A stretch of 64,000 bases of DNA, taken from Spirosoma aureum. Its GTDB lineage: Bacteria > Bacteroidota > Bacteroidia > Cytophagales > Spirosomataceae. Both the position numbers and the translations under genes were made by a program. Below, in pieces: positions 3 to 29,520 of the stretch. Position 1 is the first letter of the stretch. Each line of letters begins with the position of its first letter. The notes below the pieces were generated by a model. It made no database searches and was not told where the DNA came from. It saw only the letters and a list, made by a program, of their open reading frames with translations. Location of the stretch: the NCBI RefSeq assembly GCF_011604685.1, contig NZ_CP050063.1:3494501-3558500 (forward strand). The letters run 5' to 3'.

Positions 3-383
3 TCATTGCCCAATAACAATTCAGGAACCGATGCCGTAACGCTCAGCGATGGTCGGCAGGTGCTGGTCTACAATCACGTGCTACCGCCGGGCGATCTGGC
101 CAAAGGGCCGCGAACACCGCTGAATCTGGCCGTGTCGAACGATGGTAAAAACTGGTCGGCAGCGGTAATTCTGGAAGATTCACCCATCAGTCAGTATTCG
201 TATCCATCCGTGATTCAAACGAGCGATGGGTTGATTCATGTGATCTATACATGGCGTCGGCAAAAGATCAAACACGCGGTCATTGATCCGAAGAAACTGA
301 AATTGAAACCCATTGAAAACGGCGTTTGGCCCACTCTGGCAGGCTATACGGCACCCATAGCAAAAGAAATAACGAAGGATTGA
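3..383 (+). CDS. Sialidase-fold (BNR) glycosidase, C-terminal part
   Basis: The 5' end lies outside the window; the frame is open from base 3. The visible 126 residues are the last blades of a sialidase-type beta-propeller: an SDGRQVLVYN strand, an Asp-box-like SNDGKNW strand, then YSYPSVIQTSDGLIHVIYTW and a closing KHAVID strand. The family (BNR_2, GH33-like) removes alpha-linked 2-keto-3-deoxy sugars such as sialic acid or Kdo, but related propellers include other pectin-active enzymes, so the substrate is not fixed by what can be seen. The next genes encode a NanA-like aldolase, an acid-sugar kinase and a symporter, so I infer release of a 2-keto-3-deoxy sugar from RG-II (Dha or Kdo). The catalytic Arg triad, Tyr/Glu pair and signal peptide would be upstream of the window. 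Confidence 0.75.
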   Translation, partial: SLPNNNSGTDAVTLSDGRQVLVYNHVLPPGDLAKGPRTPLNLAVSNDGKNWSAAVILEDSPISQYSYPSVIQTSDGLIHVIYTWRRQKIKHAVIDPKKLKLKPIENGVWPTLAGYTAPIAKEITKD

Positions 384-452
384 AACGGTTTTTTGTCATG
401 CAGTCGCTCCGGCGGCCAGGCTACATCAGCAGGACAAAAACACTTTAGAACG

Positions 453-1601
453 ATGACTCAGGCTTTAAAAATACATTTTCCCGGCAAACTGGTTTTTGGT
501 AAAGGCTCTCTGGGGAGCTTAGCCGATGAAATCGGTCTACTGTTGCCCCAGCGGGTACTACTCATAACAATTAGCCCGCTTCTGGGTCAGTTGAAAAGCC
601 TGATCGATAGGCTTGAAAGCAATGGAATTGCGGTTAAGGTTGACACCAGTATTGTTCAGGAACCAACCTTCGATGATTTCGACGCATTACTGCAAGCTGT
701 CGCTCCGTTTAATCCCGACCTCGTGGCAGGCATTGGCGGAGGAAGCGTGCTGGATATTGCCAAACTGGTAGCGGCCCAACTCGACAATGACCAGTCTCTC
801 GCTGAAATCGTTGGCATTGGAAACCTGATCGGAAGGCGTAAAAAACTTATTTGTGTGCCTGCTACATCGGGAACGGGCAGTGAAGCGTCACCGAACGCCA
901 TTTTAGTCGATACGGCCGATAACCAGAAGAAAGGGATCATCAGTCCGTTTCTGGTACCCGACATCGTTTATGTCGATCCGTTGTTGACCATGAGTGTTCC
1001 TCCGGCCATTACCGCAGCTACTGGCATTGATGCACTAACGCATTGCCTGGAGGCTTACACCAACAAATTTGCCCAACCGTTCATCGACATGTACGCCTTT
1101 GAAGGCATGCGTCTGATTGCGGCCAATATCGTGCAGGCCGTTCGGGATGGATCGGACGAAGAAGCGCGTACACAGGTCGCAATGGGTAGTCTGCTGGGTG
1201 GGTTTTGTCTGGGGCCTGTCAACACGGCCGGTGTACATGCCCTGTCATATCCACTGGGCAGTATGTTTCATCTGGCTCACGGACTCTCCAATGCTTTATT
1301 GCTCCCATATGTGATGGAATTCAACGCGTCGGCATCGCTTTGCCGACATGCGCAGGTGGCCGTTGCGCTGGGGTGCGAGCGGGGTAGCACTGATGCCGAA
1401 ACGGCAGCCCGCGGAGTAGCGAAAATCAATGAACTGATTCGCGATTGTGGCATCCCGTCCCGCCTGCGCGATGTAAATATTCCCAGAGAAGCCATTCCAC
1501 AAATGGCAGATGATGCTATGAAGATTACTCGGTTACTGAAAAATAATCCTCGTGAAATTACCCGTGAGGATGCTATTGCCATTTATACAGCCGCCTACTA
1601 A
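453..1601 (+). CDS. Iron-dependent alcohol dehydrogenase family protein
   Basis: A 382-residue group III (Fe-ADH) dehydrogenase with the NAD-binding GIGGGSVLDIAK loop near residue 95 and PATSGTGSE near 140. The four metal ligands are visible as D193, H197, H262 and H276, the same spacing as in E. coli FucO (D196, H200, H263, H277). I chose ATG 453 because the protein then begins just before the usual FPGKLVFGKGS strand; a TTG at 393 would add 20 unrelated residues. It sits 2 bp before an aldolase gene, followed by pdxA2-like and DUF1537 genes. Family members interconvert aldehydes and alcohols with NAD(P)H. In this setting I infer reduction of the aldehyde made by the aldolase. A lactaldehyde reductase role in rhamnose breakdown is the main alternative. 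Confidence 0.88.
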   Translation: MTQALKIHFPGKLVFGKGSLGSLADEIGLLLPQRVLLITISPLLGQLKSLIDRLESNGIAVKVDTSIVQEPTFDDFDALLQAVAPFNPDLVAGIGGGSVLDIAKLVAAQLDNDQSLAEIVGIGNLIGRRKKLICVPATSGTGSEASPNAILVDTADNQKKGIISPFLVPDIVYVDPLLTMSVPPAITAATGIDALTHCLEAYTNKFAQPFIDMYAFEGMRLIAANIVQAVRDGSDEEARTQVAMGSLLGGFCLGPVNTAGVHALSYPLGSMFHLAHGLSNALLLPYVMEFNASASLCRHAQVAVALGCERGSTDAETAARGVAKINELIRDCGIPSRLRDVNIPREAIPQMADDAMKITRLLKNNPREITREDAIAIYTAAY

Positions 1602-1603
1602 TT

Positions 1604-2524
1604 ATGAACCTAAAAAAGAAGTATCAGGGTGTTGTCGTTCCGCTTGTTACGCCCCTGACCGAAGCATACCAATTGGATAGGCCAGCGGTTGAGAAGATAG
1701 TGAGCAATCTTCAGGCGAATGAGGCTATGCCGTTTATTTTAGGAACAACAGGAGAATCGGCTTCGCTTCCTACACCGATAAAAAAGGATTATGTGCAGGA
1801 GGTGGTGCGGCTAAAATCGGCCGATATGATGATATACGCCGGTATTTCGTCAAACTGTCTGGAAGAAACGATCGATTTTGCGAACTACTGTTTCGACTCG
1901 GGTATCGATGCGGTTGCCGCTACACTGCCTTCCTACTACAGCCTCTCAGAAAGTCAGATGAAACGGTATTTCGAACAACTGGCTAATCAGTTGAACGGAC
2001 CGCTAATCATCTATAACATCTTCGCTACCACCCACATGTCGATTCCGCTGGCGGTAATTGACGAATTAAGTTACCACCCCAATATCGTTGGTACGAAGGA
2101 CTCGGAGCGAAGCAGTGAACGACTGAACGAATCCCTGTCTTTATGGGCAAATCGTGCTGATTTTAGCCATTTTATGGGATGGGCAGCAAAGTCGGCACAG
2201 GCGCTTTTGTATGGGTCCGATGGGCTGGTTCCCAGTACCGGCAATCTGTTTCCGGGTATCTACCGGGACATGATGAAGGCGGTTCGGGCTGGCGATGCCG
2301 ATAAAGCCTATGGGTACCAAAACCAATCGGATGTATTTGGCCAGTTGTACCAATCGGGTCGGACACTGGGCGAATCATTATGGGCACTGAAAGTGTTGAT
2401 GCAGGAATATGGCCTTTGTGATCCAACGATGATGCCTCCCCTGCAATCGCTTTCTGAGCGTGAGGCCACCGAACTGAAAACGACCCTGGCCGAACTGGTC
2501 GAAAAAGAAGAAATACAACTGTAA
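1604..2524 (+). CDS. DapA/NanA-family 2-keto-3-deoxy acid aldolase
   Basis: A 306-residue class I aldolase of the dihydrodipicolinate synthase/N-acetylneuraminate lyase family. The Schiff-base lysine is K165 in VGTKDSE and the catalytic tyrosine is Y137 in IIYNIF, the same numbers as in E. coli NanA. The pyruvate-carboxylate loop is GTTGES near residue 47. Family members split 2-keto-3-deoxy sugar acids into pyruvate and an aldehyde. Start ATG is 2 bp after the Fe-ADH stop, and the PdxA2-like gene follows by 8 bp, so the three are almost certainly one transcript. No nanE, nanK or nagB gene is near, which argues against sialic acid as substrate. Dha, Kdo or 2-keto-3-deoxy-rhamnonate are candidates; I favour Dha from the neighbouring kinase and dehydrogenase. 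Confidence 0.87.
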   Translation: MNLKKKYQGVVVPLVTPLTEAYQLDRPAVEKIVSNLQANEAMPFILGTTGESASLPTPIKKDYVQEVVRLKSADMMIYAGISSNCLEETIDFANYCFDSGIDAVAATLPSYYSLSESQMKRYFEQLANQLNGPLIIYNIFATTHMSIPLAVIDELSYHPNIVGTKDSERSSERLNESLSLWANRADFSHFMGWAAKSAQALLYGSDGLVPSTGNLFPGIYRDMMKAVRAGDADKAYGYQNQSDVFGQLYQSGRTLGESLWALKVLMQEYGLCDPTMMPPLQSLSEREATELKTTLAELVEKEEIQL

Positions 2525-2532
2525 GCGAGCAG

Positions 2533-3591
2533 ATGATGTATAAGGATGATAAACCAATTGTTGGAATCACGATGGGTGATCCGGCAAGCATTGGCCCCGA
2601 AATAGCGGTTAAAGCACTGCTCAATCCGGCCATCTATGAACTGTGTAAACCTATTCTGGTGGGCGATGCGCATGTTTTTGCCGATATTGTTGCCCGGCTG
2701 AATCTGAACGCAGTGATCAGGCCGGTCAAATCAGTTCAGGACGCACAATATCAATTGGGGACAATTGATGTGTATGACCTCAACAATGTAGACATTGATC
2801 AGTTACGGTTTGGTGAAATATCGGCAATGGCCGGAGAAGCCGCTTTTGCAGCCGTAAAGACGGTGATCGAGCTGGCCCTGGCCGACGAGATTGACGCTAC
2901 AGTGACCGGCCCGATCAACAAGAAATCGATTAATGAAGCGGGTCATCATTTCGCAGGACACACCGAAATCTACGCCCATTATACCAATACCAAAAAGTAC
3001 GGTATGTTGCTGGTTGAAGATCAGATGAAGGTCATTCATGTATCGACGCATGTGTCGCTTCGGCAGGCCTGCGATCTGGTCAAGAAAGACCGGATTCTGG
3101 AAGTGATTGAACTGCTGCATAATGGCCTGATTTCTCTGGGAGAAACCAATCTGAAAATTGGGGTGGCGGGCCTGAATCCGCACGCGGGCGATTCCGGGCT
3201 GTTTGGCACCGAAGACGATCAGGAAATTTTGCCCGCTGTTGACGAGGCTAAACGGCGGGGTTTCGACGTTGAAGGACCAGTACCGGCCGACACACTATTT
3301 GCGAAAGCGGCTACGGGCTATTACGGAGGTATTGTGGCGATGTATCACGATCAGGGACACATTCCGTTTAAGCTGACCGGTTTTAAATGGAATGCTGAAA
3401 AGAAACAGATGGATAGTGTGAAGGGCGTGAACATTACTATGGGCCTGCCAATCATTCGCACGTCTGTTGACCACGGAACAGCCTTTGAAATTGCGGGTAA
3501 AGGGGTTGCCAGCGCCGACGCGATGGTATTGGCGATTGAGTCGGCAGTCCAGTTGGCGAAATACAGGCGGAAAAGCTTGCTGACAGTGTAA
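2533..3591 (+). CDS. pdxA2: PdxA2-like 4-phospho-threonate dehydrogenase
   Basis: A 352-residue member of the PdxA family of metal- and NAD-dependent beta-decarboxylating dehydrogenases. The start GITMGDPASIGPE is typical, and all three metal-binding histidines are present: H143 in AGHTE, H173 in STHVS and H272 in YHDQGH. Two pathways use this fold: PdxA in pyridoxal phosphate synthesis, and PdxA2, which oxidises 4-phospho-D-threonate (or erythronate) and yields dihydroxyacetone phosphate and CO2. The neighbour at 3696 is a DUF1537 acid-sugar kinase, the known partner of PdxA2, and no pdxJ or other vitamin B6 gene is near, so I assign the catabolic form. The gene follows the aldolase by 8 bp. 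ATG 2533 and ATG 2536 are equally possible starts. Confidence 0.85.
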   Translation: MMYKDDKPIVGITMGDPASIGPEIAVKALLNPAIYELCKPILVGDAHVFADIVARLNLNAVIRPVKSVQDAQYQLGTIDVYDLNNVDIDQLRFGEISAMAGEAAFAAVKTVIELALADEIDATVTGPINKKSINEAGHHFAGHTEIYAHYTNTKKYGMLLVEDQMKVIHVSTHVSLRQACDLVKKDRILEVIELLHNGLISLGETNLKIGVAGLNPHAGDSGLFGTEDDQEILPAVDEAKRRGFDVEGPVPADTLFAKAATGYYGGIVAMYHDQGHIPFKLTGFKWNAEKKQMDSVKGVNITMGLPIIRTSVDHGTAFEIAGKGVASADAMVLAIESAVQLAKYRRKSLLTV

Positions 3592-3604
3592 ATGAATGGT
3601 TAAT

Positions 3605-3683
3605 CAACTTCCTAAAGCGGGCCCGTCCGGCGTTGCAGTTTTGAACCACCCCTCCGCGGATGCGGTTCAACTCTTTCGGGAAG
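3605..3683. repeat. Hairpin-rich leader ahead of the DUF1537 gene
   Basis: The 104-bp gap between the PdxA2-like gene and the kinase is the only long gap in this operon. It holds a 7-bp inverted repeat (ttgaacc 3641-3647 with ggttcaa 3664-3670) around the palindrome tccgcgga (3653-3660). The flanks, aacttcctaaag at 3605 and ctttcgggaag at 3673, resemble the two arms of the cttcccgaaag hairpins seen in other gaps of this window. It could be an mRNA processing or attenuation site, or a decayed copy of that repeat. There is no T-run, so it is not a standard terminator. Confidence 0.4.
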
Positions 3684-3695
3684 CTATAGAACGAA

Positions 3696-4847
3696 ATGAT
3701 CGCGGTTATTGCAGACGATTTAACGGGAGCCGCTGAGCTTGGAGGCATTGGCCTAACGTATGGGCTTCGGGTCGAAATTGCCATGTCGGTCAATCCACAA
3801 TCTACCGCCGATTTGCTGGTAATCGCTACCGATGCCCGGTCGGTTTCGGAGCCGGAAGCTGTGCAGGAAATGACCTGTGCCAGCAAAGCGTTACTTCAGA
3901 TGAAGCCGCGATTGATTTTCAAGAAAGTCGATTCGGTGCTGCGAGGGCATGTTATTGCTGAAACACAGGCACAACAGGCAGTTTTTGGAGTAGAAAAAGC
4001 CCTGATTGTTCCGGCGAATCCGGCGCTGGGCAGAACATTGATCAACGGTACGTATTACGTAAATGGCCAACCGATTGCCCAGACGCATTTTTCCGAAGAT
4101 CCGGAATTTCCGATAACCGATTCGGATGTATTAAGACGGCTCAGCGTTAATTTTGTCCAATTAACCGTGCAGTCGCATACCACAGCGTTACCGAAGCAGG
4201 GAATCGTTATCGGTGAAGTTGCAACAACGGACGATTTACGGGCATGGGCAAAACGGATCAATACGCAGACCCTGATTGGGGGAGGTTCCGGATTTTTTAC
4301 GGCCATACTCGATTCATTGCAACTGCCAGAGTTAGTTGGCAAAGAGCCTGCGAAATTGGGTGAAGTCAGACTTTATGTATGTGGAAGTGCATTTGGTGAG
4401 CGAGTCGCGTTGGTAAAGAAAGCGGCCGATGCTGGCCAGGCCGTGAGTTATATGCCGAACGCGCTGACGCACGTTTTCCGATTTAATGAGTCCGATCTGG
4501 ATGGTTGGGTGGCCGAAATCGTCGGCTGTTTTCAGCACCACAGTCAGGTCATTATCGCTATTGAGCCAGGCCTGATTGATGACGATAAGCAGGCGGCTGT
4601 TCACCTGCGAACGGTAATGGCAATGGCCGTGAGCCGGGTGCTGTCACAAACAAAAACCGATGAGCTGATTATTGAAGGAGGGTCAACCGCTTCGGCTGTG
4701 CTTCGGGCCATTGGTGTCACGCGGCTGGTTCCGGTTCAGGAATTGGGGCCCGGCGTCGTCAGGAGCGATGCCATTGAAAAAGACAGCCTGCATATCACTG
4801 TGAAACCGGGAAGCTATCGATGGCCAGCGGACTTATGGACATGTTGA
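3696..4847 (+). CDS. dtnK: Four-carbon acid sugar kinase (DUF1537), D-threonate kinase-like
   Basis: A 383-residue kinase of the DUF1537 family (N-terminal SBD_N and C-terminal NBD_C domains). The N-terminal signature IADDLTGAAE starts at residue 5 and carries the two Asp that mark the acid-sugar site. FKKVDSVLRGH near residue 75 is the second conserved block, and the nucleotide-binding end is GGSTASAVLRAIG with PGVVRSD downstream. The family phosphorylates C4 acids such as D-threonate and D- or L-erythronate, and also 3-oxo-isoapionate. The PdxA2-like gene just upstream makes D-threonate or erythronate the likely substrate; the phosphorylated acid would then go to dihydroxyacetone phosphate. 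The protein is somewhat shorter than typical members of about 420 residues. The symbol is by analogy and the exact substrate is unproven. Confidence 0.8.
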   Translation: MIAVIADDLTGAAELGGIGLTYGLRVEIAMSVNPQSTADLLVIATDARSVSEPEAVQEMTCASKALLQMKPRLIFKKVDSVLRGHVIAETQAQQAVFGVEKALIVPANPALGRTLINGTYYVNGQPIAQTHFSEDPEFPITDSDVLRRLSVNFVQLTVQSHTTALPKQGIVIGEVATTDDLRAWAKRINTQTLIGGGSGFFTAILDSLQLPELVGKEPAKLGEVRLYVCGSAFGERVALVKKAADAGQAVSYMPNALTHVFRFNESDLDGWVAEIVGCFQHHSQVIIAIEPGLIDDDKQAAVHLRTVMAMAVSRVLSQTKTDELIIEGGSTASAVLRAIGVTRLVPVQELGPGVVRSDAIEKDSLHITVKPGSYRWPADLWTC

Positions 4848-4863
4848 ATAATTTCTAAACCTA

Positions 4864-6468
4864 ATGCCAAACCCAACCCTGAGCGTACTCGATTACCTGA
4901 TAATTGGTACGGTTTTATTCATCAACCTGTATTTTGGGTTGCGGTACGCCCGAAAACAGCAAACCACAGAATTATATTTTGCCGCTAAAGGTCGGGTACC
5001 TGCCTGGGCCATCGGCATGTCATTACTGGCGACACTAATCAGTAGCGTTACCTTTTTAGGGTATCCAAGTGAAGGGTATTCTTCGAACTGGATTTTGCTG
5101 GTACAGGGTTTAATGGTACCCATTATTTTGCTGGGAACGATCTGGTTTATCGTCCCGCTGTACCGCAAAGTAATTGGCCTGAGTACCTACGAATATTTTG
5201 AAAAACGCTTTGGCCGCTTTGCCCGCTATTATAGCTCAATCGCGTTCGTTCTCCGGCAATTTTCGTCCATGGGAACTGTCTTTTTCCTGCTGGCGGTGGC
5301 ATTGACCAACATGACGGGCGCTGATACCTTCTACATCATTGTTATCGTTGGACTGATCATCATCACGGTCAACCTGTTAGGGGGTATTGAAGCTGTTATC
5401 TGGTTAGATGTTTTTCAGGGATTCATGCTGTTTGCCAGTGGCATTCTCTGCGTTACGGTCATCATTTTTTCGGTTAAGGGTGGTCTGCCGGAGATCCTGG
5501 ACATTGCTTCTGCCAATGGTCGAACCGGATTTGGCCCATATGACCTGGATTTTACCAAACTTACGTTCATTGTGATGGTCATCAATGGGGCATTCTACGC
5601 CATTCAGAAATATGGTACCGACCAGACCGTTGTGCAGCGTTATCTGACCGCCAAAACAGATAAAGCAGCTATCAAAGCCTCAATTCTGGGCATCTCGCTA
5701 ACGGTGCCGGTATGGGCACTATTCATGTTTATTGGTACGGCCCTGTTTGTCTACTACAAACAACAGCCTTTACCGCCAACACTACGGCCGGATGCGGTTT
5801 TCCCGTATTTCATCATGACCCGATTCCCAACGGGCGTTGTTGGATTCATTCTGGCAGCCATGATCTCGGCGGCTATCTGTAGCCTGAGCGCCGATCTGAA
5901 CTCGCTGGCTGCTGTGGGTTTAGAAGATTTCTACAAAAAAGCGCGCCCGGCAAGAACCGATAAAGAATACCTGACCGTCAGTAAACTGATTGTTGTTTTT
6001 TCAGGTGTTATTGCCATCCTGATTGGAGCCATCTACCTCCAGGCAGGAAATGAAGGGGTTTTAGGAATCGTATTCACTTTATACGCCATTTTTTCGGGTG
6101 GGATTGTCGGAATTTTTCTGTTGGGTATTTTCAGTGCCCGAGCCAATAAAGAAGGGGTAAATATTGCCATTGTAGTCTGTATTCTGTTTACGGCCTATGC
6201 GTTTCTGACGTCTACCAAAATCGGGTACGGCGATAACAAAAGGCTGCTGCTGGACATGGGCATCTACAATTTCACCCACCACAAGCTGATGCTTGGCGTG
6301 TATAGCCACCTGATCGTTATTGGCGTCGGCTACATAGCCAGCCTGTTCTTCCCAAAACCGGTGCTGGATACCAATCTGTTGTACAGCGGGTGGCGAAATG
6401 CATCCAGATCATCGTCCAAAGAGGAAACATCCACTTCCCGGAAATTCGATGCAATGGGGAAATTATAA
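4864..6468 (+). CDS. Sodium:solute symporter (SSS family), operon 1
   Basis: A 534-residue inner-membrane protein with about 13 hydrophobic segments and the SSS-family layout: TELYFAAKGRVPAWAIGMS after the first helix, GYPSEGY, YEYFEKRFGR in the loop after the third helix, and GGIEAVIWLDVFQG near residue 172. Family members carry sugars, sialic acid, inositol or iodide with Na+. The gene follows the DUF1537 kinase by 16 bp and closes the catabolic operon, so I infer that it imports the sugar acid split by the aldolase at 1604. A strong 36-bp inverted repeat starts 11 bp after its stop and separates it from the glycosidase genes. Substrate cannot be read from sequence. Confidence 0.85.
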   Translation: MPNPTLSVLDYLIIGTVLFINLYFGLRYARKQQTTELYFAAKGRVPAWAIGMSLLATLISSVTFLGYPSEGYSSNWILLVQGLMVPIILLGTIWFIVPLYRKVIGLSTYEYFEKRFGRFARYYSSIAFVLRQFSSMGTVFFLLAVALTNMTGADTFYIIVIVGLIIITVNLLGGIEAVIWLDVFQGFMLFASGILCVTVIIFSVKGGLPEILDIASANGRTGFGPYDLDFTKLTFIVMVINGAFYAIQKYGTDQTVVQRYLTAKTDKAAIKASILGISLTVPVWALFMFIGTALFVYYKQQPLPPTLRPDAVFPYFIMTRFPTGVVGFILAAMISAAICSLSADLNSLAAVGLEDFYKKARPARTDKEYLTVSKLIVVFSGVIAILIGAIYLQAGNEGVLGIVFTLYAIFSGGIVGIFLLGIFSARANKEGVNIAIVVCILFTAYAFLTSTKIGYGDNKRLLLDMGIYNFTHHKLMLGVYSHLIVIGVGYIASLFFPKPVLDTNLLYSGWRNASRSSSKEETSTSRKFDAMGKL

Positions 6469-9572: not shown

Positions 9573-10682
9573 ATGATTTCCCCGATCGTTCGAATTGTAT
9601 TCTTTTGTCTTCTGGTTTCACCCCTCTTTGCTCAATCCGTCCGTGTTTCTGACGCACGGATGAATCAGATTTATGAGGAAGTGAAAACGCCTTTTAAGTA
9701 TGGTCTGGTCATAACGCCGGCTGATAACTCGCAGAAGCTGGACTGCCCGACCGTGTTTCGGAAAGGCAAAAAATGGTACATGACCTACATCATGTATGGT
9801 GGCCGGGGCTACGAAACCTGGCTGGCCAATAGCAATGATTTGTTGCACTGGGAAACGCAGGGTCGCATTATGTCCTTCTCTGATACAACACAGTGGGATG
9901 GCAATCAGAAAGCGGGCTATAATGCTTTGCAGGATTTTCAGTGGGGTGGGGGTTATGAACTGAAAAAATATCAGAATAAGTACTGGATGTCGTATATCGG
10001 CGGGGCTGCTCGTGGCTACGAAGCCGGTGATCTATCGATTGGCATTGCTTTTTCGGCACAGAACCCCACGAACGTGCACGAATGGCAACGTAAAGCAACG
10101 CCCGTGCTAACGGCCGGAGACGCCGATACCCGATGGTGGGAAAATCGAAAGCTTTTTAAAAGCTCGGTCATCCACGACCCGAAAAAATTAACCGGTCATC
10201 CGTTTGTGATGTACTACAATGCCAATGGCGATACGACGGGCGTGAATAAGACACGTTGGTTCGAGCGGATTGGCATGGCGGTGTCAGACGATATGCTGAA
10301 CTGGAAGCGCTTTGGAAAAGAGCCGATTCTGCAACATCCGGTTGGCATTACGGGCGACGCCGTGGTTCAGAAAATAGGCGACACCTGGGTGATGTTCTAT
10401 TTTGGTGCTTTCTGGCAGGATCGAAAAGGGGCCTTCAATCGATTTGCCGCATCGACCGATCTGGTCAACTGGACCGACTGGACAGGCGAAAACCTGATCG
10501 AACCATCGGAGCCATACGATGAACTGTATGCGCATAAATCATTCGTTGTCAAGCATAAAGGAGTCGTTTACCACTTCTATTGCGCCGTTAATAAGCAGGA
10601 TCAACGGGGGATTGCGGTGGCTACGTCGGTCGATTTAGGAAAAAGTAAGAAGAATTTTGTCGCCATCAGCAAGAAGCAATGA
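9573..10682 (+). CDS. Five-bladed beta-propeller glycosidase (GH43/GH117-like)
   Basis: A 369-residue secreted protein (signal peptide ending near SPLFAQ). Repeated blade motifs include KWYMTYIMYGGRGYETWLA, NDLLHWETQG, KYWMSYIGGAARGYEAG, DDMLNWKRFG, DTWVMFYFGAF and TDLVNWTDWTG, the pattern of the GH32/43/62/117 superfamily. An Asp at LDCPTV, one at TGDAVV and a Glu at PYDELYAHKSF are candidate active-site acids. I cannot name the CAZy family or substrate from sequence. Its stop overlaps the next start (ATGA at 10679), so it is translationally coupled to the GH2 gene and probably acts on the same oligosaccharide. In an RG-II setting it is a candidate for an arabinosyl, xylosyl or galactosyl linkage. 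Confidence 0.75.
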   Translation: MISPIVRIVFFCLLVSPLFAQSVRVSDARMNQIYEEVKTPFKYGLVITPADNSQKLDCPTVFRKGKKWYMTYIMYGGRGYETWLANSNDLLHWETQGRIMSFSDTTQWDGNQKAGYNALQDFQWGGGYELKKYQNKYWMSYIGGAARGYEAGDLSIGIAFSAQNPTNVHEWQRKATPVLTAGDADTRWWENRKLFKSSVIHDPKKLTGHPFVMYYNANGDTTGVNKTRWFERIGMAVSDDMLNWKRFGKEPILQHPVGITGDAVVQKIGDTWVMFYFGAFWQDRKGAFNRFAASTDLVNWTDWTGENLIEPSEPYDELYAHKSFVVKHKGVVYHFYCAVNKQDQRGIAVATSVDLGKSKKNFVAISKKQ

Positions 10683-13114: not shown

Positions 13115-13175
13115 ATTGAGGTCTATCTATAACTCGTCGCTCCGCGATACATAACCTGCGTACTCCGGTTTGGGC

Positions 13176-16100
13176 ATGATAAACGCTAACTATTGCTTAC
13201 GATTTTTTGCTTTCTTCATTTCACTTTCTCTATGGCTGGCTGATGGAAAATCATTGGCTCAGTTGCCGGGTGGATTGGCAAAGATCGTTCCTCCGGCTAA
13301 ACAGTCGGCTAATGCCAAACCATGGGTATTCTGGTACTGGATGCAGGGTGGCGTCTCGAAAGAAGGCATCACGGCCGATCTGGAAGCGATGAAAGAGACT
13401 GGTATCGGTGGCGCTTACCTGATGCCCATAAAGGGTGTAACAGACCCGCCACTATATACGCCCGCAACCGCGCAACTTAGCCCGCGTTGGTGGGACATGG
13501 TGCGATTTACGATGCAGGAGGCTAAACGGCTGGGGCTGGAGATGGGCATGCACGTGAGCGATGGCTTCGCGCTGGCTGGTGGTCCCTGGATAACGCCCGC
13601 CTTATCGATGCAGAAAGTAGTGTATGCATCGATGCAGGTTCAGGGTAATCAAGCCATTTCGGTTAAGCTCCCGCAACCACCGGCTAATGAAGGCTATTAC
13701 AAAGACATTGCCGTACTGGCATTCCCATCGTTTAGGGGGTCGCCCGATGGCTCGAACGAAAGCGTTCAACCCAAAATCACATCCAGCAAACCTGGCGTAA
13801 ATCCGCAGTTTTTGATTGATCGGACCAGTAAGGAAAGCTTTAAAAGTGACACTGCCTGCTGGATTCAATATGCGTTTGATCAGCCATTTACCTGCCGTTC
13901 AGTTCTCATCCGGACGGGGGGTAATAACTACCAGGCGCAGCGATTACAGATCGAGGTCAGCAATGATGGCAAAACCTTTCGGCCGATTGAGCGCCTTGAA
14001 CCACCCCGGCATGGCTGGCAGGATACCGATGCCGATGTCACTCACGCCATTACACCAACTACGGCCCGCTATTTCCGATTTGTGTATGATAAAGCCGGAT
14101 CAGAACCGGGAGCCGAAGATCTGGATGCCGCCAAGTGGAAACCGGGGCTGAAACTCATCGGTCTGGAACTCTCGGCTGAACCCCGAATTAATCAGTTTGA
14201 AGGAAAATCGGCGATTGTCTGGCGGGTCGGTAAACGAGCGATTCCTGCTGTGAACGACCCTAAGCAGGGCGACCCCGCGAATTTGGCAGATCAAAGCATT
14301 GATAAGCTAGCCATTCCCCTCAGCAAAGTGATCAATCTGACTGACAAACTGACGGCAGACGGCCACCTGAACTGGAATGCGCCCGCTGGCTCATGGACCA
14401 TCATGCGCATCGGTCATACCTCTACGGGACACACAAATGCAACGGCCGGGGCGGGTAAAGGACTGGAATGCGACAAGTTTAACTCTGAAGCCATATCCCT
14501 TCAGTTTACAAGCTGGTTTGGTGAAGCGCAGCGACAAATCGGCCCCGAACTGAGCAAAAACGTCCTGAAAGTCTTCCATGTCGACAGTTGGGAGTGTGGT
14601 AGTCAGAACTGGTCATCCAACTTTGCCAGCGAATTCAAAAAACGGCGGGGCTATGAATTAACACCTTATCTGCCGGTTATAGCGGGTATTCCCATCGAGA
14701 GCGTTGAGGTATCGGAACAGGTGTTATATGATATTCGCCGAACGGTGGCCGATCTGATTGTCGATGTATTTTATAAAACACTGGCGGATTTGGCTCATGA
14801 AAACGGAGTTACGTTTACCGCCGAAAGTGTAGCCCCAACCATGACCAGCGATGGACTGGCGCATTACAAACGGGTCGATGTGCCGATGGGTGAATTCTGG
14901 CTGAACAGCCCAACGCACGACAAACCAAACGACATGCTCGATGCGGTGTCGGCGGCTCATATCTACGGGAAAAATATCGTACAGGCCGAGGGATTTACCA
15001 CCGTTCGGATGGCCTGGGACGAGCATCCGGGTATGTTGAAAACGCTTCAGGATCGTAACTACGCGTTGGGCATAAACAAGTTAGTGTATCATGTTTTCAC
15101 CCATAACCCCTGGCTCGACCGAAAACCGGGCATGACACTCGACGGTGTTGGACTTTATTTTCAACGGGATCAGACCTGGTGGAAATCGGTCAGCGCCTGG
15201 GTCGATTATGCCCGTCGATGTCAGACCCTTCTGCAAATCGGAAAGCCAGTAGCGGATATTGCCGTTTTTACGGGCGAAGACATTCCCCGACGGGCTGTTC
15301 TACCGGATCGGCTGGTTTCGACTCTGCCCGGTATTTTCGGCAAAGAAGTAGTTAAAAAAGAGGCAAAGCGACTGGCCAATGCAGGTGAACCGTTGCGGCA
15401 GAAGCCAGCAGGCGTAACGCATTCGGCTAACATGGCCGATCCTGAAAATTGGGTAGATCCGCTACGAGGGTATGCCTATGATTCATTCAGCCCTGATGCG
15501 CTGAACACGCTGGCGAATATGCAAGGGGGCAGGGTGTCATTTGCACCGGGCACGGCCTATTCGTTGCTCGTGTTACCAGATAAGCACCCGCTAAACATGA
15601 ATAACCGGTTCATGACTCCCGAAACGGCCGCCAGGTTTCTCAAACTGGTCAATGAAGGAGCTATGGTTCTGGTTGGTGAAAAGCCCATTTTCTCGGCGGG
15701 TAAAGGCGCTGATAAGCAAATTACTACGCTGACCGATCAGCTGTGGGGCGGGTCATTTGACCAGGTATCTGACGGGGAGACTTCCTTCCGGATGAAGCGC
15801 CTTGGGAAAGGTAGGGTTATTCAAACACCTTATCAGGTTGGTTCCTTTGAAAAGCTTGGCCTTTCACGGGATGTAGATTTCACCGAAACGACTGGCGAGT
15901 ACGCCCGCAACATTGCCTGGACACATCGGACAGATGGGCAGATGGATCTTTATTTCATTGCCAATCAGGAGGCCATCCAACGCGACATTACAGTTTCGTT
16001 TCGGCAAATGGGAAGAGCACCAGAGCTTTACAACGCCGTTACGGATGAATTAACCGAAGCGAAACAGTGGAGCAATCAACAGGGCCGAACGCAATTATCG

Positions 16101-16700
16101 GTACGGTTAGAACCCAACTCATCGCTATTCGTACTCTTTCGCAAACCGGCTCAACTAACTGCCTATTCGGGTAAGAATTGGACCGATTTTCGGCCAGTAA
16201 AAACGCTGGAAGGTTCGTGGGAAGTGCAGTTTGATACGGCATATGGCGGCCCCAAACAACCCCAAACCTTTGCTCAACTCACCGACTGGAGCCAATCAGC
16301 TGACTCGTCCATTCGTTATTATTCAGGTACGGCAACGTACTCGAAAATCGTTAACTGGGCTCCTCCATCCGCTACTTCGCCACAGCGTTTCTGGCTCGAT
16401 TTAGGCAACATCGCCAACATCGCCGATGTCAAACTAAATGGCGTTTCCTGTGGTGTTGCATGGACGGCTCCGTATCGGATTGAGATCACGCACGTACTCA
16501 AAACCGGCGAAAACCGGCTAACCATCGACGTTAGCAATACCTGGGCCAATCGCCTGATTGGCGATCAGTTGCGGCCCGAATCCAGGCGCATCACCCGAAC
16601 TACGGCGCCGTTCCGATTACAGGGGAAACCACTACTGAAAGCGGGCTTGCTGGGGCCAGTTCAGATTTTAGTGGACGCTCCTGATCAATCCCATAAATAG
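13176..16700 (+). CDS. GH106 alpha-L-rhamnosidase, secreted
   Basis: A 1174-residue protein with a signal peptide ending near SLAQ. The start is a GH106 hallmark: WVFWYWMQGGVSKEGITADL followed by ETGIGGAYLMP. A discoidin-like insert (around residues 215-330, SNDGKTFRPIERL) precedes the barrel region with HVDSWECGSQNWS, EFWLNSPTHDKPN and QAEGFTTVRMAWDEHPG, which hold candidate catalytic Glu residues. The C-terminus is a GH2-type sugar-binding sandwich (FWLDLGNIANIADVKLNG). GH106 includes BT0986, the rhamnosidase acting on RG-II. I use ATG 13176; the TTG at 13170 would add two residues. It lies 61 bp after the GH2 gene, in the same direction as the rest of the run. Confidence 0.92.
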   Translation: MINANYCLRFFAFFISLSLWLADGKSLAQLPGGLAKIVPPAKQSANAKPWVFWYWMQGGVSKEGITADLEAMKETGIGGAYLMPIKGVTDPPLYTPATAQLSPRWWDMVRFTMQEAKRLGLEMGMHVSDGFALAGGPWITPALSMQKVVYASMQVQGNQAISVKLPQPPANEGYYKDIAVLAFPSFRGSPDGSNESVQPKITSSKPGVNPQFLIDRTSKESFKSDTACWIQYAFDQPFTCRSVLIRTGGNNYQAQRLQIEVSNDGKTFRPIERLEPPRHGWQDTDADVTHAITPTTARYFRFVYDKAGSEPGAEDLDAAKWKPGLKLIGLELSAEPRINQFEGKSAIVWRVGKRAIPAVNDPKQGDPANLADQSIDKLAIPLSKVINLTDKLTADGHLNWNAPAGSWTIMRIGHTSTGHTNATAGAGKGLECDKFNSEAISLQFTSWFGEAQRQIGPELSKNVLKVFHVDSWECGSQNWSSNFASEFKKRRGYELTPYLPVIAGIPIESVEVSEQVLYDIRRTVADLIVDVFYKTLADLAHENGVTFTAESVAPTMTSDGLAHYKRVDVPMGEFWLNSPTHDKPNDMLDAVSAAHIYGKNIVQAEGFTTVRMAWDEHPGMLKTLQDRNYALGINKLVYHVFTHNPWLDRKPGMTLDGVGLYFQRDQTWWKSVSAWVDYARRCQTLLQIGKPVADIAVFTGEDIPRRAVLPDRLVSTLPGIFGKEVVKKEAKRLANAGEPLRQKPAGVTHSANMADPENWVDPLRGYAYDSFSPDALNTLANMQGGRVSFAPGTAYSLLVLPDKHPLNMNNRFMTPETAARFLKLVNEGAMVLVGEKPIFSAGKGADKQITTLTDQLWGGSFDQVSDGETSFRMKRLGKGRVIQTPYQVGSFEKLGLSRDVDFTETTGEYARNIAWTHRTDGQMDLYFIANQEAIQRDITVSFRQMGRAPELYNAVTDELTEAKQWSNQQGRTQLSVRLEPNSSLFVLFRKPAQLTAYSGKNWTDFRPVKTLEGSWEVQFDTAYGGPKQPQTFAQLTDWSQSADSSIRYYSGTATYSKIVNWAPPSATSPQRFWLDLGNIANIADVKLNGVSCGVAWTAPYRIEITHVLKTGENRLTIDVSNTWANRLIGDQLRPESRRITRTTAPFRLQGKPLLKAGLLGPVQILVDAPDQSHK

Positions 16701-20149: not shown

Positions 20150-22189
20150 ATGAACCTGAAAAGAAAATTTCTGATAAACGCATGCGTGGGGCTGACTTCA
20201 ATGCTCGGCAGTCTGACCGTCTGCGCTCAACCCAAGGGATTGGTGAATACATCGCAGAGTAAGTTTGCCCGGTTGCAGGGGGTGAACATGAGCGATGTGA
20301 CCTGGACAACAGGCTTTTGGGCGGATCGTTTTAAGGTTTGTCGTGACTCGATGGTGCCGCATCTGTGGCAAACCTATACCGATCCGAATCTTAGTCATTC
20401 GTTCGAGAACTTTAAAGTAGCGGCTGGCCTTAGCGCGGGAAATTTTAAAGGACCGTCGTTTCACGATGGCGATTTTTATAAAACACTGGAATCGCTGGCG
20501 GGCATGTATGCCCTGACCCGAGACAAAAAACTCGATGCGATGATGGACGAGGCCATTGCCGTTATCGGTAAGGCACAAACGCCCGATGGCTACATTTATA
20601 CAAAAGCCATTATCCAGCAAAAGAAAACGGGCGAGAAAAAGATGTTCGATGATAAGCTTAGTTTCGAAGCCTATAATTTCGGCCATCTGATGACAGCCGC
20701 CTGTGTTCACTACCGGGCAACGGGTAAAACGTCATTGCTGGATATTGCCAAGAAGGCAACGAATTTTCTGATTGGCTTTTACAACAATGCAAGCCCTGAG
20801 CAGGCTCGGAATGCGATTTGTCCGTCACACTACATGGGCGTTATTGAAATGTATCGCACCACCCGCGATCCCGCTTACCTGGCGCTGGCTCAAAAGCTGA
20901 TCGATATTCGTGGACTTTCGGAAGGTACCGATGATAATTCCGACCGGGTGCCATTCCGTAAAATGACAAAAGTGATCGGTCACGCGGTTCGGGCAAATTA
21001 CCTATTTGCGGGCGCTGCCGATGTGTTTGCCGAAACGGGTGATAGTACGCTGCTGTCTACGCTCGATCTGATGTGGGACGATGTGGTCAATCACAAAATG
21101 TACGTAACAGGCGGATGCGGTGCTTTGTACGATGGCGTTTCGCCGGAAGGCACTTCGTATAAACCCGATACCGTGCAGAAAATTCACCAGGCTTATGGTA
21201 AAGCCTATCAGCTGCCGAATCACTCGGCCCATAACGAAACCTGTGCCAACATTGGCAATCTGCTCTGGAATTACCGGATGTTGCAAATTACCGGCAATGC
21301 CAAATACGCTGACGTGATGGAGTTGGCGCTCTACAACAGCATTTTGTCGGGTATAAGCCTGGATGGGAACAAGTTCTTCTATACCAATCCATTGAGTGCA
21401 TCGGACGATTATCCGTACCATATGCGCTGGATGGGAGGGCGGCAGAAATACATCCGATTGTCGAACTGTTGTCCGCCCAACACCGTGCGTACCCTTGCCG
21501 AAGTGAGCAACTATGCCTACAGCGTGTCGGACAAGGGACTATGGCTGAATTTATTCGGTGCTAACCAGTTGTCTACTACCCTCGAAGATGGTTCACCCAT
21601 TCGGTTGACGCAGGAAACGGCTTACCCCTGGGATGGAGCCATTAAACTCAGTCTGGAGCAAGTACCCGCTAAATCGTTTTCGCTGTTTGTTCGTATACCG
21701 GGCTGGTGTCAGGGCGCAACAATAAAAATAAATGGTTCGCCAGTAGCAGCAGTGATCAAATCGGGCGACTATGCTGAGCTTAACCGGAGCTGGAAGGCAG
21801 GCGATAAAGTAGAAATCAACCTGCCGATGCCAGTAAAACTGATCGAAGCGAATCCACTGGTCGAAGAGACCCGCAATCAGGTGGCGGTCAAACGGGGGCC
21901 GGTTGTGTATTGCCTGGAATCGATCGACAATCAGAATAAAAAGATAACCGGGCTTGCTTTGTCGCCCAGAAACAAGTTGAAGCCAACCCGCATCGTGATC
22001 GAAAATAGTGAGGTGATGGCGCTGGAAGGCGAAGCCCAGCAGGTCGAGAATGGAACCTGGTCGAACCAGCTTTACCGCGAAGTATCGGACAAAACGCCGG
22101 CTTCAACGAACGTTCGGCTGATTCCATATTATGCCTGGAGTAATCGTGGGCGCTCCGAAATGTCGGTCTGGATTCCGTTGATTCGGTAG
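20150..22189 (+). CDS. GH127 beta-L-arabinofuranosidase, secreted
   Basis: A 679-residue DUF1680/GH127 enzyme with an N-terminal signal peptide ending near TVCAQ. The (alpha/alpha)6 barrel contains FHDGDFYKTLESLAGMYAL, the zinc and catalytic cluster E363-x-C365 in HNETCANIGN, and the paired cysteines C440-C441 in LSNCCPPNTVR. These match the Glu/Cys cluster of HypBA1 (E338, C340, C417, C418). A beta-sandwich domain follows (LFVRIPGWCQGATIKINGSPV). The enzyme removes terminal beta-L-arabinofuranose, a sugar at the end of an RG-II side chain. It is 8 bp after the LacZ-type gene and shares its transcript. Confidence 0.92.
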   Translation: MNLKRKFLINACVGLTSMLGSLTVCAQPKGLVNTSQSKFARLQGVNMSDVTWTTGFWADRFKVCRDSMVPHLWQTYTDPNLSHSFENFKVAAGLSAGNFKGPSFHDGDFYKTLESLAGMYALTRDKKLDAMMDEAIAVIGKAQTPDGYIYTKAIIQQKKTGEKKMFDDKLSFEAYNFGHLMTAACVHYRATGKTSLLDIAKKATNFLIGFYNNASPEQARNAICPSHYMGVIEMYRTTRDPAYLALAQKLIDIRGLSEGTDDNSDRVPFRKMTKVIGHAVRANYLFAGAADVFAETGDSTLLSTLDLMWDDVVNHKMYVTGGCGALYDGVSPEGTSYKPDTVQKIHQAYGKAYQLPNHSAHNETCANIGNLLWNYRMLQITGNAKYADVMELALYNSILSGISLDGNKFFYTNPLSASDDYPYHMRWMGGRQKYIRLSNCCPPNTVRTLAEVSNYAYSVSDKGLWLNLFGANQLSTTLEDGSPIRLTQETAYPWDGAIKLSLEQVPAKSFSLFVRIPGWCQGATIKINGSPVAAVIKSGDYAELNRSWKAGDKVEINLPMPVKLIEANPLVEETRNQVAVKRGPVVYCLESIDNQNKKITGLALSPRNKLKPTRIVIENSEVMALEGEAQQVENGTWSNQLYREVSDKTPASTNVRLIPYYAWSNRGRSEMSVWIPLIR

Positions 22190-22280: not shown

Positions 22281-23837
22281 ATGAAGTCAATTCAGCATTA
22301 TATAGTCATCCTGACCCTATGCCTCCTGCAAACAACCCGTTGCCGGGCACAGTCGGCCAATGTGCTGTCTACTGATAAACTCAGGCAATACGTAAGCCTG
22401 TTTAACACCATCGATCAGGAAGAAGCCGTCAAAAACTACGTGCCTAATGACCAGTCATTTGAGTGGCTTGCCAAAAATATCCCGCTGTTCGACTGCCCCG
22501 ATTCGGCCTTGCGGGAGATCTACTACTACCGTTGGTGGGCTTTTCGGAAGCATCTGAAAGAAACGCCGGAGGGGTATATCTTTACGGAATTTATTACGAA
22601 AATGAACCATGCGGGAAAATACAATGCTATCAGCAGCGCATTGGGTCATCACATTTATGAAGGTCGCTGGCTACACAATCCGCAGTATATCGACGACTAC
22701 ATTTCATTCTGGCTCTATGTCGATCCGAAACATACGGTCCAGAGATTTCATGCGTTCAGCAGCTGGGTAGACGATGCAGTCTATAACCGTTACCTCGTCA
22801 ATCTGGACAAACCGTTTATTCAGAAAAACCTGCTGGCTTTAGATGCCGACTACCGCAAGTGGCAGCAGGAAAAACAACTACCTGATGGCCTGTTCTGGCA
22901 ATTTGACGTCCGCGATGCGATGGAAGAGTCCATCAGCGGATCGCGGAAAGAGAAAAACCGCCGGCCTACCATTAACAGCTACATGTACGGCAATGCAAAA
23001 GCGTTAGCGGAAATGGCTGCGTTGGTAAAGAACGATACGCTTCAACGGCTGTATCAACGGCAGGCTGCTGAACTGAAAAAGCTGACACTCGATAGTTTGT
23101 GGAACAAGGACGACCTCTTTTTTGAGGTAAAGCATGAAAATGGGAGCTTTGCCAAAGCCCGCGAAGCCATTGGATTTATTCCCTGGTATTTTAACCTTCC
23201 CGACGACAAAGCGGAGTATGCCCGTCAATGGGATCAACTGACCGATACCACGGGTTTCGACGCTCCCTGGGGTATCACGACGGCCGAACGAAGGCACCCG
23301 CTTTTCCGTACGCATGGATCTGGGCATGGGTGCGAGTGGGATGGGCCTGTCTGGCCGTTTGCCACCACGCAAACCCTGAAAGGACTGGCTAACCTGCTCA
23401 CGGATTACAAAAACCAGGGCCGCATGACGAAGACCGTTTTTTACGATGAGTTGCAGAAATACGCCCGGTCACATACCATGAACGGCCAGTTGTATCTGGG
23501 CGAATATCAGGACGAAAAAACGGGCGAATGGCTCAAAGGCGATAACCCAAGGAGTAAATTTTACAATCATTCGGGCTTTGCCGATTTAATTATCAGTGAC
23601 CTGATCGGCCTTAAACCACACGCCGACAATACGCTGGAAATCCATCCACTAATTCCTGAGGGTAAATGGGATTGGTTTTGCCTCGACAATGTTCTGTATC
23701 ACGGAAAAATTCTAACCGTTCTGTTCGATAAAACCGGGACCCATTACGGAAAAGGGAAGGGCTTCATAGTCTTTTCTGATGGGAAACCAGTACTAAAGAG
23801 AGAAAAGCCAGCGCCAGTAACGATTCGAAAGTTCTAG
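22281..23837 (+). CDS. MGH1-like six-hairpin glycosidase of unknown substrate
   Basis: A 518-residue secreted protein (signal peptide ending near CRAQ) with the helical-barrel pattern of the trehalase/GH37-GH63/MGH1 group. Visible blocks are IYYYRWWAFRKHL, FWQFDVRDAMEESISGSR (candidate Asp/Glu acids), RRPTINSYMYGNAKALAEM, GSGHGCEWDGPVWPFATTQT and YNHSGFADLIISDLIGL. I do not recognise a characterised family with the same active site, and RG-II has no alpha-glucose or mannose for a trehalase or GH63 enzyme. Its place between the GH127 enzyme and a symporter suggests hydrolysis of an oligosaccharide whose product is then imported. It is a good candidate for an unassigned side-chain linkage. Confidence 0.75.
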   Translation: MKSIQHYIVILTLCLLQTTRCRAQSANVLSTDKLRQYVSLFNTIDQEEAVKNYVPNDQSFEWLAKNIPLFDCPDSALREIYYYRWWAFRKHLKETPEGYIFTEFITKMNHAGKYNAISSALGHHIYEGRWLHNPQYIDDYISFWLYVDPKHTVQRFHAFSSWVDDAVYNRYLVNLDKPFIQKNLLALDADYRKWQQEKQLPDGLFWQFDVRDAMEESISGSRKEKNRRPTINSYMYGNAKALAEMAALVKNDTLQRLYQRQAAELKKLTLDSLWNKDDLFFEVKHENGSFAKAREAIGFIPWYFNLPDDKAEYARQWDQLTDTTGFDAPWGITTAERRHPLFRTHGSGHGCEWDGPVWPFATTQTLKGLANLLTDYKNQGRMTKTVFYDELQKYARSHTMNGQLYLGEYQDEKTGEWLKGDNPRSKFYNHSGFADLIISDLIGLKPHADNTLEIHPLIPEGKWDWFCLDNVLYHGKILTVLFDKTGTHYGKGKGFIVFSDGKPVLKREKPAPVTIRKF

Positions 23838-29347: not shown

Positions 29348-29423
29348 AGCCGTTTTTGATAGCTATCTTTTGGCAGGATGACAAAAATGTGCACAACTGC
29401 CACTAGTTAATGCAAACTTCTCA

Positions 29424-29494: not shown

Positions 29495-29520
29495 CGAAAA
29501 TCCTGACAAATAATTCCTGC

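Follow-up and report, generated by a model that had tools for sequence, protein, structure and literature searches.

A Five-Gene Module Proposed to Carry Dha From RG-II Into Central Metabolism in Spirosoma aureum

The Proposed Route

Five genes at positions 453–6468 of a stretch of Spirosoma aureum DNA (64,000 nucleotides, here called the window) probably form the intracellular half of a utilisation system for chain D of RG-II, with a route that leads from Dha (3-deoxy-D-lyxo-2-heptulosaric acid) to pyruvate, dihydroxyacetone phosphate (DHAP) and CO2. Few plant polysaccharides are as complex as RG-II; its depolymerisation has been described, while a described fate of Dha was not found. Outside the cytoplasm, a GH142-type enzyme would strip off arabinofuranose and a GH143-type enzyme would free Dha from the galacturonan backbone. 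Following uptake by the SSS (sodium:solute) symporter, Dha would be cut between C3 and C4 by the NanA-fold lyase, giving pyruvate and 2,3-dihydroxy-4-oxobutanoate (tartaric semialdehyde), and the latter would be reduced to D-threonate by the Fe-containing alcohol dehydrogenase (Fe-ADH). The DUF1537 kinase would then form 4-phospho-D-threonate, which the PdxA paralogue would oxidise and decarboxylate to DHAP. We infer all substrates of this route, including the specificities for Dha and D-threonate, as well as the cellular locations of its steps. The stereochemical fit is established directly: a sequence-only reading of the window had stated that removal of pyruvate from Dha followed by reduction yields D-threonate, and a check of the configuration proved this correct, while Kdo cleaved in the same way would give D-arabinose. 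That reading had also proposed a route covering every step from release to central metabolism. Stereochemistry and gene neighbourhoods both support the route itself, but the releasing step had implicitly been given to a sialidase-fold protein, and it belongs more probably to GH143 and GH142 enzymes. As had been supposed, no description of such a route was found, the literature covered being that under open licence.

The Genes of the Module

Gene content, order and families were observed directly. All six genes that had been read as one co-directional run are present on the plus strand in the order given, namely the gene of the sialidase-fold protein followed by those of Fe-ADH (453–1601; Pfam Fe-ADH/ADH_Fe_C), a class I lyase of NanA/DapA fold (1604–2524; DHDPS), the PdxA paralogue (2533–3591; PdxA), the DUF1537 kinase (3696–4847; SBD_N and NBD_C, both over the gathering score) and the SSS symporter (4864–6468; SSF). 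The last five are the proposed C4 semialdehyde reductase, Dha aldolase, 4-phospho-D-threonate dehydrogenase, D-threonate kinase and Dha importer, respectively. The gaps of 2 bp (Fe-ADH/lyase), 8 bp (lyase/PdxA) and 16 bp (kinase/SSS) agree exactly with those first read, and the fourth, between PdxA and kinase, measures 104 bp. The open reading frame of Fe-ADH extends over 393–1601 and opens with TTG, but the ATG that lies in frame at 453 is the likelier start; the nearest solved structures are 1,3-propanediol oxidoreductase and lactaldehyde reductase.

The module lyase carries the hallmarks of class I enzymes, the Schiff-base lysine K165 and Tyr137; both residues had been named before and were confirmed by alignment. 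Together with E168, R173 and R184 they are conserved in 79 of 79 aligned sequences, a set in which L013 and L014 duplicate L067 and L068. The structural model (pLDDT 95.5) matches N-acetylneuraminate lyase best (TM 0.89), and with respect to named members such as DapA, neuraminate lyase and KDG aldolase all seven NCBIfam matches lie under their cut-offs. R169 (73/79), R173 and R184 (79/79 each) and R/K253 (76/79) are candidates for holding the C7 carboxylate of Dha.

The best NCBIfam match of the kinase is D-threonate kinase, at 123 bits against a cut-off of 450 and with residues 2–152 only as the best stretch, so that the protein is not filed as DtnK; the best solved match is 4xfm. The protein is no more than a remote relative of the characterised D-threonate kinases, and its phosphorylation of D-threonate is putative. 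Remote kinase matches were also seen in L016, L017 and, within the same genome, L002/L005. The PdxA paralogue reaches 272 bits to 2hi1 (PdxA 2) and 267 bits to 6e85 (D-threonate 4-phosphate dehydrogenase), compared with 186 bits to the PdxA 1ps6, and a second PdxA of the genome (C1:7203499–7204497, 37% identical) scores likewise, with 205 and 214 against 183 bits to the same three structures. Since the module protein passes the general PdxA cut-off (TIGR00557, 332 vs 290 bits) and misses that for D-threonate-4-phosphate dehydrogenase (NF002891, 309 bits under an equivalog cut-off of 583), the name PdxA2 depends on relative scores. It is a paralogue beside a DUF1537 kinase, and the other PdxA remains for a putative role in vitamin B6 synthesis. 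Such a role for the module protein is disfavoured because of this other PdxA; one paper, in which PdxA2 is able to catalyse the PdxA reaction, counts the other way (PMC9997740).

The RG-II Locus and the Release of Dha

The window together with a GH143 homologue just upstream of it is an RG-II utilisation locus, as it holds homologues of both halves of BT1020, an aceric acid hydrolase and an apiosidase-like protein. The GH143 homologue lies three genes upstream of the sialidase-fold gene, in the same direction and just outside the window, and aligns with 783 bits to residues 24–614 of 5mqr (which we take to be BT1020), that is, to the Dha-hydrolase half. The C-terminal half has its homologue in a GH142-type protein (22281–23837, plus strand; 538 bits to 5mqr residues 621–1091), which by homology would take off the arabinofuranose capping Dha in chain D. 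Three further genes serve as RG-II markers, encoding a GH127 aceric acid hydrolase (20150–22189, plus strand; NF049879, 1182 bits, cut-off 950), a β-L-arabinofuranosidase-like protein (9573–10682, plus strand; presumably GH137; 529 bits to the N-terminal part of NF049877, positions 5–362 of 1400) and the apiosidase-like protein (46595–48001, minus strand; presumably GH140; Pfam Apiosidase, 393 bits). A GH106 rhamnosidase-like protein (13170–16700; Glyco_hydro_106) and a GH141-like protein (29410–32031; GH141_M) are encoded on the plus strand.

The GH143 homologue, acting with the GH142-type protein at 22281–23837, is probably what releases Dha. The sialidase-fold (BNR_2) protein, of which the window contains the C-terminal part (3–383, plus strand; the remainder lies to the left), had been taken for the releasing enzyme. 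It was rejected as the Dha hydrolase, since the GH143 homologue in the same gene run is the better candidate and a fold search led to general sialidases only. The whole open reading frame has 402 amino acids (L004:3175–4383), and an AlphaFold model of the orthologue from L026 (mean pLDDT 82.6) resembles sialidases with a TM of 0.65 by query length. The protein is probably exported, as its N-terminus looks signal-like by eye; a role as a second hydrolase of ulosonic acids is more likely for it, with Kdo as a guess at the substrate. According to one study, the BT1020-type enzyme has a two-site activity with one half being the Dha hydrolase, and GH143 has a catalytic Tyr/Glu pair (PMC6811678).

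Recurrence of the Module and Linkage to GH143

Relatives of the kinase were collected by an alignment-based scan of 84,980 species genomes, with search patterns derived from this clade, which gave 231 relatives, the best 80 of which were kept and analysed; a scan of genome contigs with the single sequence returned none. In 65 of these 80 loci Fe-ADH, lyase, PdxA, kinase and SSS symporter follow in identical order on one strand (recognised reading frames, with unrecognised ones in between skipped), four further loci have the first four genes in order, and of the other 11 loci two (L033 and L043) prove by tblastn to have all five genes. Neighbours were named by their best blastp match to the proteins of the S. 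aureum locus and not by curated family assignment, and for each unlabelled neighbour cluster one representative was scanned with Pfam. A relative of the symporter is present in 76 of the 80 loci. The grouping of the five genes is far beyond chance. The 80 loci are concentrated in a few Bacteroidota families and are thus not 80 independent cases. Beyond Bacteroidota, the set also occurs in metagenome bins of two more NCBI phyla, and its surroundings vary. In 15 loci Fe-ADH has a divergent fructose-1,6-bisphosphatase-type gene upstream, two of these loci having an AraC-type gene interposed. A bisphosphatase as neighbour fits a route that ends in trioses, and most of these loci belong to Mucilaginibacter or close kin, so that they may go back to a single event.

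The linkage to GH143 across species was likewise observed directly. A GH143-type propeller is over the cut-off in 75 of the 80 kinase genomes (including G421, at 41 bits, and G467, which have partial domain matches only), compared with 22 of 395 genomes in a Bacteroidota sample; the two counts overlap, since the contigs of G436 and G437 recur in the sample as G176 and G031, with identical contig number, length and match coordinates. The distance to the kinase is at most 25 kb in 37 genomes, 25–50 kb in 19 and larger in one, while GH143 is on another contig in 18 and absent from five, a count that omits 11 short PF24067 matches (about 20–33 bits), each from a genome that has a strong one as well. 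GH143 is also near the kinase in metagenome bins of Ignavibacteriota and Planctomycetota, its position is upstream in Spirosoma and Larkinella and downstream in Prolixibacteraceae and Melioribacteraceae, and loci with GH143 nearby occur on both sides of the kinase tree (which omits L013 and L014 and the kinases of L043 and L075, whose reading frames were missed in calling). The neighbourhood check suggested alongside the sequence-only reading, which would have spoken against the route had the set occurred mainly away from RG-II enzymes, came out in its favour: the set is mainly in genomes and at loci that carry RG-II enzymes, above all GH143. The linkage has exceptions: in G033 the module is 645 kb from GH143 and has sugar-kinase and ABC-transporter-like genes (named by eye) as neighbours, and nine of the 61 loci of at least 20 kb have no RG-II-type family, although GH143 lies 24 kb away in L040 and 46 kb away in L058, both among these nine. 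In the other direction, 19 of the 22 GH143 genomes of the Bacteroidota sample (n = 395) have no kinase, and 18 of the 21 searched have no close lyase (the 22nd, G297, has only a short GH143 match of 20.4 bits, or 27.7 with neighbours), indicating that GH143 does not require the module.

Alternative Substrates

Since the window holds a second lyase–symporter pair, formed by an SSS symporter (23901–25490, plus strand; SSF) and a NanA/DapA-fold lyase (25487–26431, plus strand; DHDPS) that is 17% identical to the first, this pair might be the Dha aldolase system and the module might serve something else. Orthologues of the second lyase (at least 43% identity, itself counted) occur in seven of the 21 GH143 genomes and lie about 9–20 kb from GH143 in four of them (G166, G080, G138 and G150), which favours this idea. 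However, none of these four genomes has a kinase match, the 20 kb surrounding GH143, fetched for three of them (G166, G080 and G150), showed no recognised module gene, and the lyase alone would leave a C4 semialdehyde without the proposed downstream enzymes, so that we regard the idea as very improbable; as a guess, the second lyase is a candidate Kdo aldolase. Its presence also speaks against the reading in which the module is linked to RG-II but handles Kdo, with the sialidase-fold protein freeing Kdo and the module lyase splitting it into pyruvate and D-arabinose. That reading would agree with the occurrence of the sialidase-fold gene in 21 of the 80 loci (directly upstream of Fe-ADH in 17), and Kdo is the RG-II ulosonic acid besides Dha. 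Yet D-arabinose is neither an acid nor a C4 compound, which would leave kinase and PdxA idle, and the second pair is available for Kdo, six of the seven genomes that have its lyase being without the kinase. Kdo was rejected as the module substrate because cleaving it yields no C4 acid, and the reading as a whole is quite unlikely.

It is somewhat less unlikely, though still improbable, that the module is linked to RG-II through another acid, such as one formed from aceric acid or apiose; the substrate of the lyase would then be a keto-deoxy intermediate produced elsewhere. Aceric acid hydrolase is over the cut-off in 67 of the 80 kinase genomes, and kinases for different C4 acids exist, a 3-oxo-tetronate kinase among them; 3-oxo-tetronate kinase and a 3-oxo-isoapionate kinase belong to DUF1537. 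On the other hand, two Melioribacteraceae bins (G437 and G449) have the module and a GH143-like gene within 10 kb and no match to the aceric acid hydrolase profile, and we know of no apionate route that uses PdxA, for which reason 3-oxo-isoapionate was rejected as the substrate. That the module is a general route for soil tetronates, free D-threonate among them, and owes its link with pectin loci to lineage history alone, has very little probability. A LacI-type gene (one representative scanned with Pfam) is found in 14 loci, directly upstream of Fe-ADH in 11, several of these loci showing no RG-II family nearby, and the first four genes are present at L063, L067 and L075, whose genomes are without GH143, as such a route would allow. 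Against it, lyase and Fe-ADH would be superfluous for D-threonate, and the linkage to GH143 repeats with differing gene orders and in distant bacteria. A wider proposal, which we hold to be possible and put slightly short of an even chance, is that of a dedicated five-gene Dha pathway spread over at least three phyla (NCBI naming), present also in feeders on other Dha glycans such as green algal scales and accompanied by a sister lyase–symporter pair for Kdo.

Comparison With Known Systems

If correct, the Dha route would provide a testable set of enzymes for Dha and a genomic marker of its users, as well as a physiological source of D-threonate inside the cell, and with it a reason for enzymes of the DtnK/PdxA2 type. 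It would also be the first enzymatic handle on Dha, standards of which are described as lacking in one source (PMC12168206). In the wider proposal, which has slightly less than an even chance, the Dha module and the Kdo pair together would supply the last missing link from the depolymerisation of RG-II to central metabolism.

The locus shares with the RG-II utilisation loci of Bacteroides thetaiotaomicron both halves of BT1020, the aceric acid hydrolase, GH137-, GH140- and GH141-like proteins, GH106, GH78 and SusC/SusD. These loci, with BT1020 as a GH143-GH142 protein, were reportedly described by Ndeh et al. in 2017; the two halves are fused there, whereas they are separate genes in Spirosoma. 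For the intracellular fate of Dha in the B. thetaiotaomicron system, no description was found in the literature excerpts consulted. Catabolism of D-threonate by DtnK (a DUF1537 protein) and PdxA2 is said to have been reported by Zhang et al. in 2016. The module resembles that system in having a DUF1537 kinase next to a PdxA-family dehydrogenase and DHAP as the proposed product, but its kinase is distant from DtnK, and it adds a lyase and an Fe-ADH, by which D-threonate would be made from Dha within the cell. Sialic acid is used by means of a neuraminate lyase and an SSS transporter, and the module is similar in that an ulosonic acid would be imported by an SSS protein and split by a NanA-fold lyase into pyruvate and a shorter aldehyde. 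In contrast to the steps that follow for ManNAc, however, the aldehyde would here be a C4 semialdehyde acid requiring reduction, phosphorylation and decarboxylation.

The module and its RG-II surroundings

The six genes described by the sequence-only reading were all recovered by ORF and domain search of the window: a first gene encoding a sialidase-fold (BNR_2) protein and cut by the window's left edge, and a module of five genes (window 453-6468) encoding an Fe-ADH, a NanA-fold lyase (the first lyase), a PdxA, a DUF1537 kinase and an SSS symporter (SSS1). The gaps of 2, 8 and 16 bp that it had named were measured as such, with a further one of 104 bp (gaps 2, 8, 104 and 16 bp). The Fe-ADH gene has an in-frame ATG at window position 453, which puts its start 69 bp after the preceding gene. 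The source contig is a single-contig genome of 8.9 Mb, in which the complete first gene is a 402-codon ORF with an N-terminus that appears signal-like by eye, and the co-directional gene run extends to the left beyond the window with genes for a DUF3826 protein, a SASA-type esterase, a 673-aa protein and a DUF6298 protein.

The 673-aa protein, whose domain is BT_1020-like according to Pfam, aligns with residues 24-614 of PDB 5mqr at 783 bits, and a homologue of the other half (538 bits to residues 621-1091) is encoded at window 22281-23837. We take PDB 5mqr to be BT1020, the two halves of which are of the GH143 (PF24067) and GH142 types. By its gene content the locus is an RG-II locus, because both 5mqr halves are accompanied in the window by an aceric acid hydrolase (1182 bits, cut-off 950), GH137-like, GH106, GH78, GH141-like, GH95 and apiosidase-like proteins, and two SusC/SusD-type pairs. 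The GH143 family was founded for a Bacteroides thetaiotaomicron enzyme with two sites acting on RG-II chain D, the first of which takes off arabinofuranose, after which Dha is cleaved at the other (PMC6811678). The module almost certainly belongs to the use of RG-II, or of a Dha-bearing glycan, in this genome.

Linkage of the module to GH143

Among 395 genomes drawn across the phylum the kinase is rare, with matches in seven, five of them close (at least 38% identity, the window's own included), and PF24067 was over cut-off in 22. Three of the five close-kinase genomes have both, with a chance of 0.0014 (hypergeometric, kinship ignored). When an alignment of five kinases was run against 84,980 species genomes, it returned 231 relatives, of which the best 80 were analysed; the closest named ones among these are from Spirosoma and other Spirosomataceae. 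The five module genes stand in order and on one strand among the recognised ORFs at 65 of these 80 loci, and the first four at 4 more; of the other 11 fetched loci, two (L033, L043) show the full set of five in a tblastn search, eight lie on contigs shorter than 13 kb and the last is L032. PF24067 was over cut-off in 75 of the same 80 genomes (45/50 and 30/30), two being partial matches. GH143 lies within 25 kb of the kinase in 37, at 25-50 kb in 19, far away in one and on another contig in 18, with five lacking it; about 2% would be expected by chance at up to 50 kb in a 5 Mb genome. The sequence-only reading had proposed a search for the four-gene set next to RG-II loci. Counting GH143, aceric acid hydrolase type, GH137, GH140, GH141 and GH142 as RG-II-type families (assigned by best hit), 43 of the 61 fetched loci of at least 20 kb contain one or more of them, nine have only broader pectin-locus families and nine have none.

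The arrangement varies between lineages, with GH143 upstream of the module in Spirosoma and Larkinella, and downstream in Prolixibacteraceae (L093, L102) and a further Bacteroidia locus (L090). The Melioribacteraceae loci L068 and L080 also have a GH143-like gene (41-44% identity) downstream; the genome database used counts this family within the window's own phylum. In a Phycisphaerae bin (L095, L121; Planctomycetota), one contig carries the module together with GH78-like proteins, an aceric acid hydrolase and a GH143-GH142 fusion. All representatives of Ignavibacteriota and Planctomycetota are metagenome bins. GH143-near members are located on either side of the midpoint root of the kinase tree (81 rows), the rooting serving for drawing only.

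Incomplete sets and other glycans

Some results count against the Dha route. In the phylum sample, 19 of the 22 GH143 genomes have no kinase match, and only 3 of the 21 GH143 genomes searched contain a close relative of the first lyase. Such bacteria must either not use Dha or degrade it by a different route. The module in turn may have more than one use: the genomes of L063, L067 and L075, which carry its first four genes, gave no GH143 match, and in genome G033 the module is 645 kb from GH143. No PF24067 match was found in the genome of L032 either; the locus keeps PdxA and kinase, followed by the second symporter-lyase pair described below (L032:8874-13986), and tblastn of the locus recognised neither Fe-ADH nor the first lyase nor a close SSS1. 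This natural case fits the Dha route.

In favour of Dha over another RG-II sugar, the aceric acid hydrolase accompanies the kinase somewhat less often than GH143 does, being over cut-off in 67 of the 80 kinase genomes (best 80 of 231) versus 75 for GH143. Two Melioribacteraceae bins (G437, G449) gave no aceric acid hydrolase match at all in a profile search of the genomes, and have a GH143-like gene and the module at most 10 kb apart. At the Melioribacteraceae loci L068, L080 and L120, in genomes without such a match, module and GH143-like gene lie by a sulfatase, identified by domain scan in L068 (further neighbours judged by eye). These three loci possibly act on a Dha-bearing glycan other than RG-II, e.g. 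algal scales. The green alga Mesostigma is reported to have Dha in its scales (PMC1413533), which suggests these scales as a possible place where such bacteria meet Dha.

A second pair of SSS symporter (SSS2) and NanA-fold lyase is encoded at window 23901-26431. It directly precedes the module in L076, L083 and L084, with one short ORF between them in L099, and orthologues of the second lyase occur in 7 of 21 genomes with GH143, among them the genome of the window. Going by the list of RG-II sugars, in which Kdo is the other ulosonic acid, our guess is a Kdo importer and a Kdo aldolase, respectively.

Further observations at the loci

A fructose-1,6-bisphosphatase-type gene lies divergently upstream of Fe-ADH at 15 loci (L042, L046, L049, L051-L053, L055, L062, L085, L086, L091, L096, L097, L100 and L104; one representative domain-scanned), with an AraC-type gene between the two at loci L042 and L049; this placement looks as though the route fed gluconeogenesis. 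Several loci encode, after the symporter, an exported-looking protein of ~460 aa and a separate xylose-isomerase-like TIM-barrel protein (L070:12772-15054 and equivalents; TIM-barrel cluster in 18 of 84 loci). DUF6298 (L003:11784-14936), DUF3826 (L003:18480-19178; cluster in 24 of 84) and DUF5703 (L066:1886-4207; cluster in 13 of 84) are also recurrent. At L119:1450-3012 (minus strand) the genome's other PdxA reads as a 520-codon ORF with ~170 N/Q/R-rich residues ahead of the PdxA domain. Genome G286 has a 27% identical NanA-fold lyase (C11:119320-120222) 18 kb from GH143 (C11:100945) with two in-frame TAG codons, either a decayed gene or a case of recoding.

Chemistry of the proposed route and known systems

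The earlier derivation of D-threonate from Dha is borne out by bookkeeping of the Fischer centres, in which the reduced C4 fragment is D-threonate; the same procedure gives D-arabinose for the Kdo fragment. A C7 keto-deoxy diacid would be the ulosonic acid whose cleavage requires exactly the module's enzymes. In the alignment, Y137 and K165 of the first lyase are present in 79 of 79 family sequences and E168, R173 and R184 are likewise invariant, while the second-type lyases (n = 7) differ at the latter three positions. The predicted structure of the first lyase (pLDDT 95.5) has neuraminate lyases as its nearest match. The PdxA of the module resembles 2hi1 and 6e85 more than 1ps6, but the genome's second PdxA shares this leaning more weakly and the comparison is therefore not decisive. 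Kinase and PdxA both score under the D-threonate equivalog cut-offs.

A DUF1537 kinase beside a PdxA paralogue is reportedly the signature of D-threonate use (Zhang et al. 2016). Two papers describe DtnK as a D-threonate kinase of the DUF1537 type and PdxA2 as a PdxA paralogue in organic-acid catabolism (PMC10971088, PMC9997740). Among the matches listed from openly licensed PMC literature, which is weak evidence of absence, none linked threonate catabolism, PdxA or DUF1537 in bacteria to Dha or to RG-II, and papers pairing RG-II and threonate appear, by title and start of abstract, to be plant-related. The Dha route is quite probably a new catabolic pathway, a well-supported prediction built from known enzyme families.
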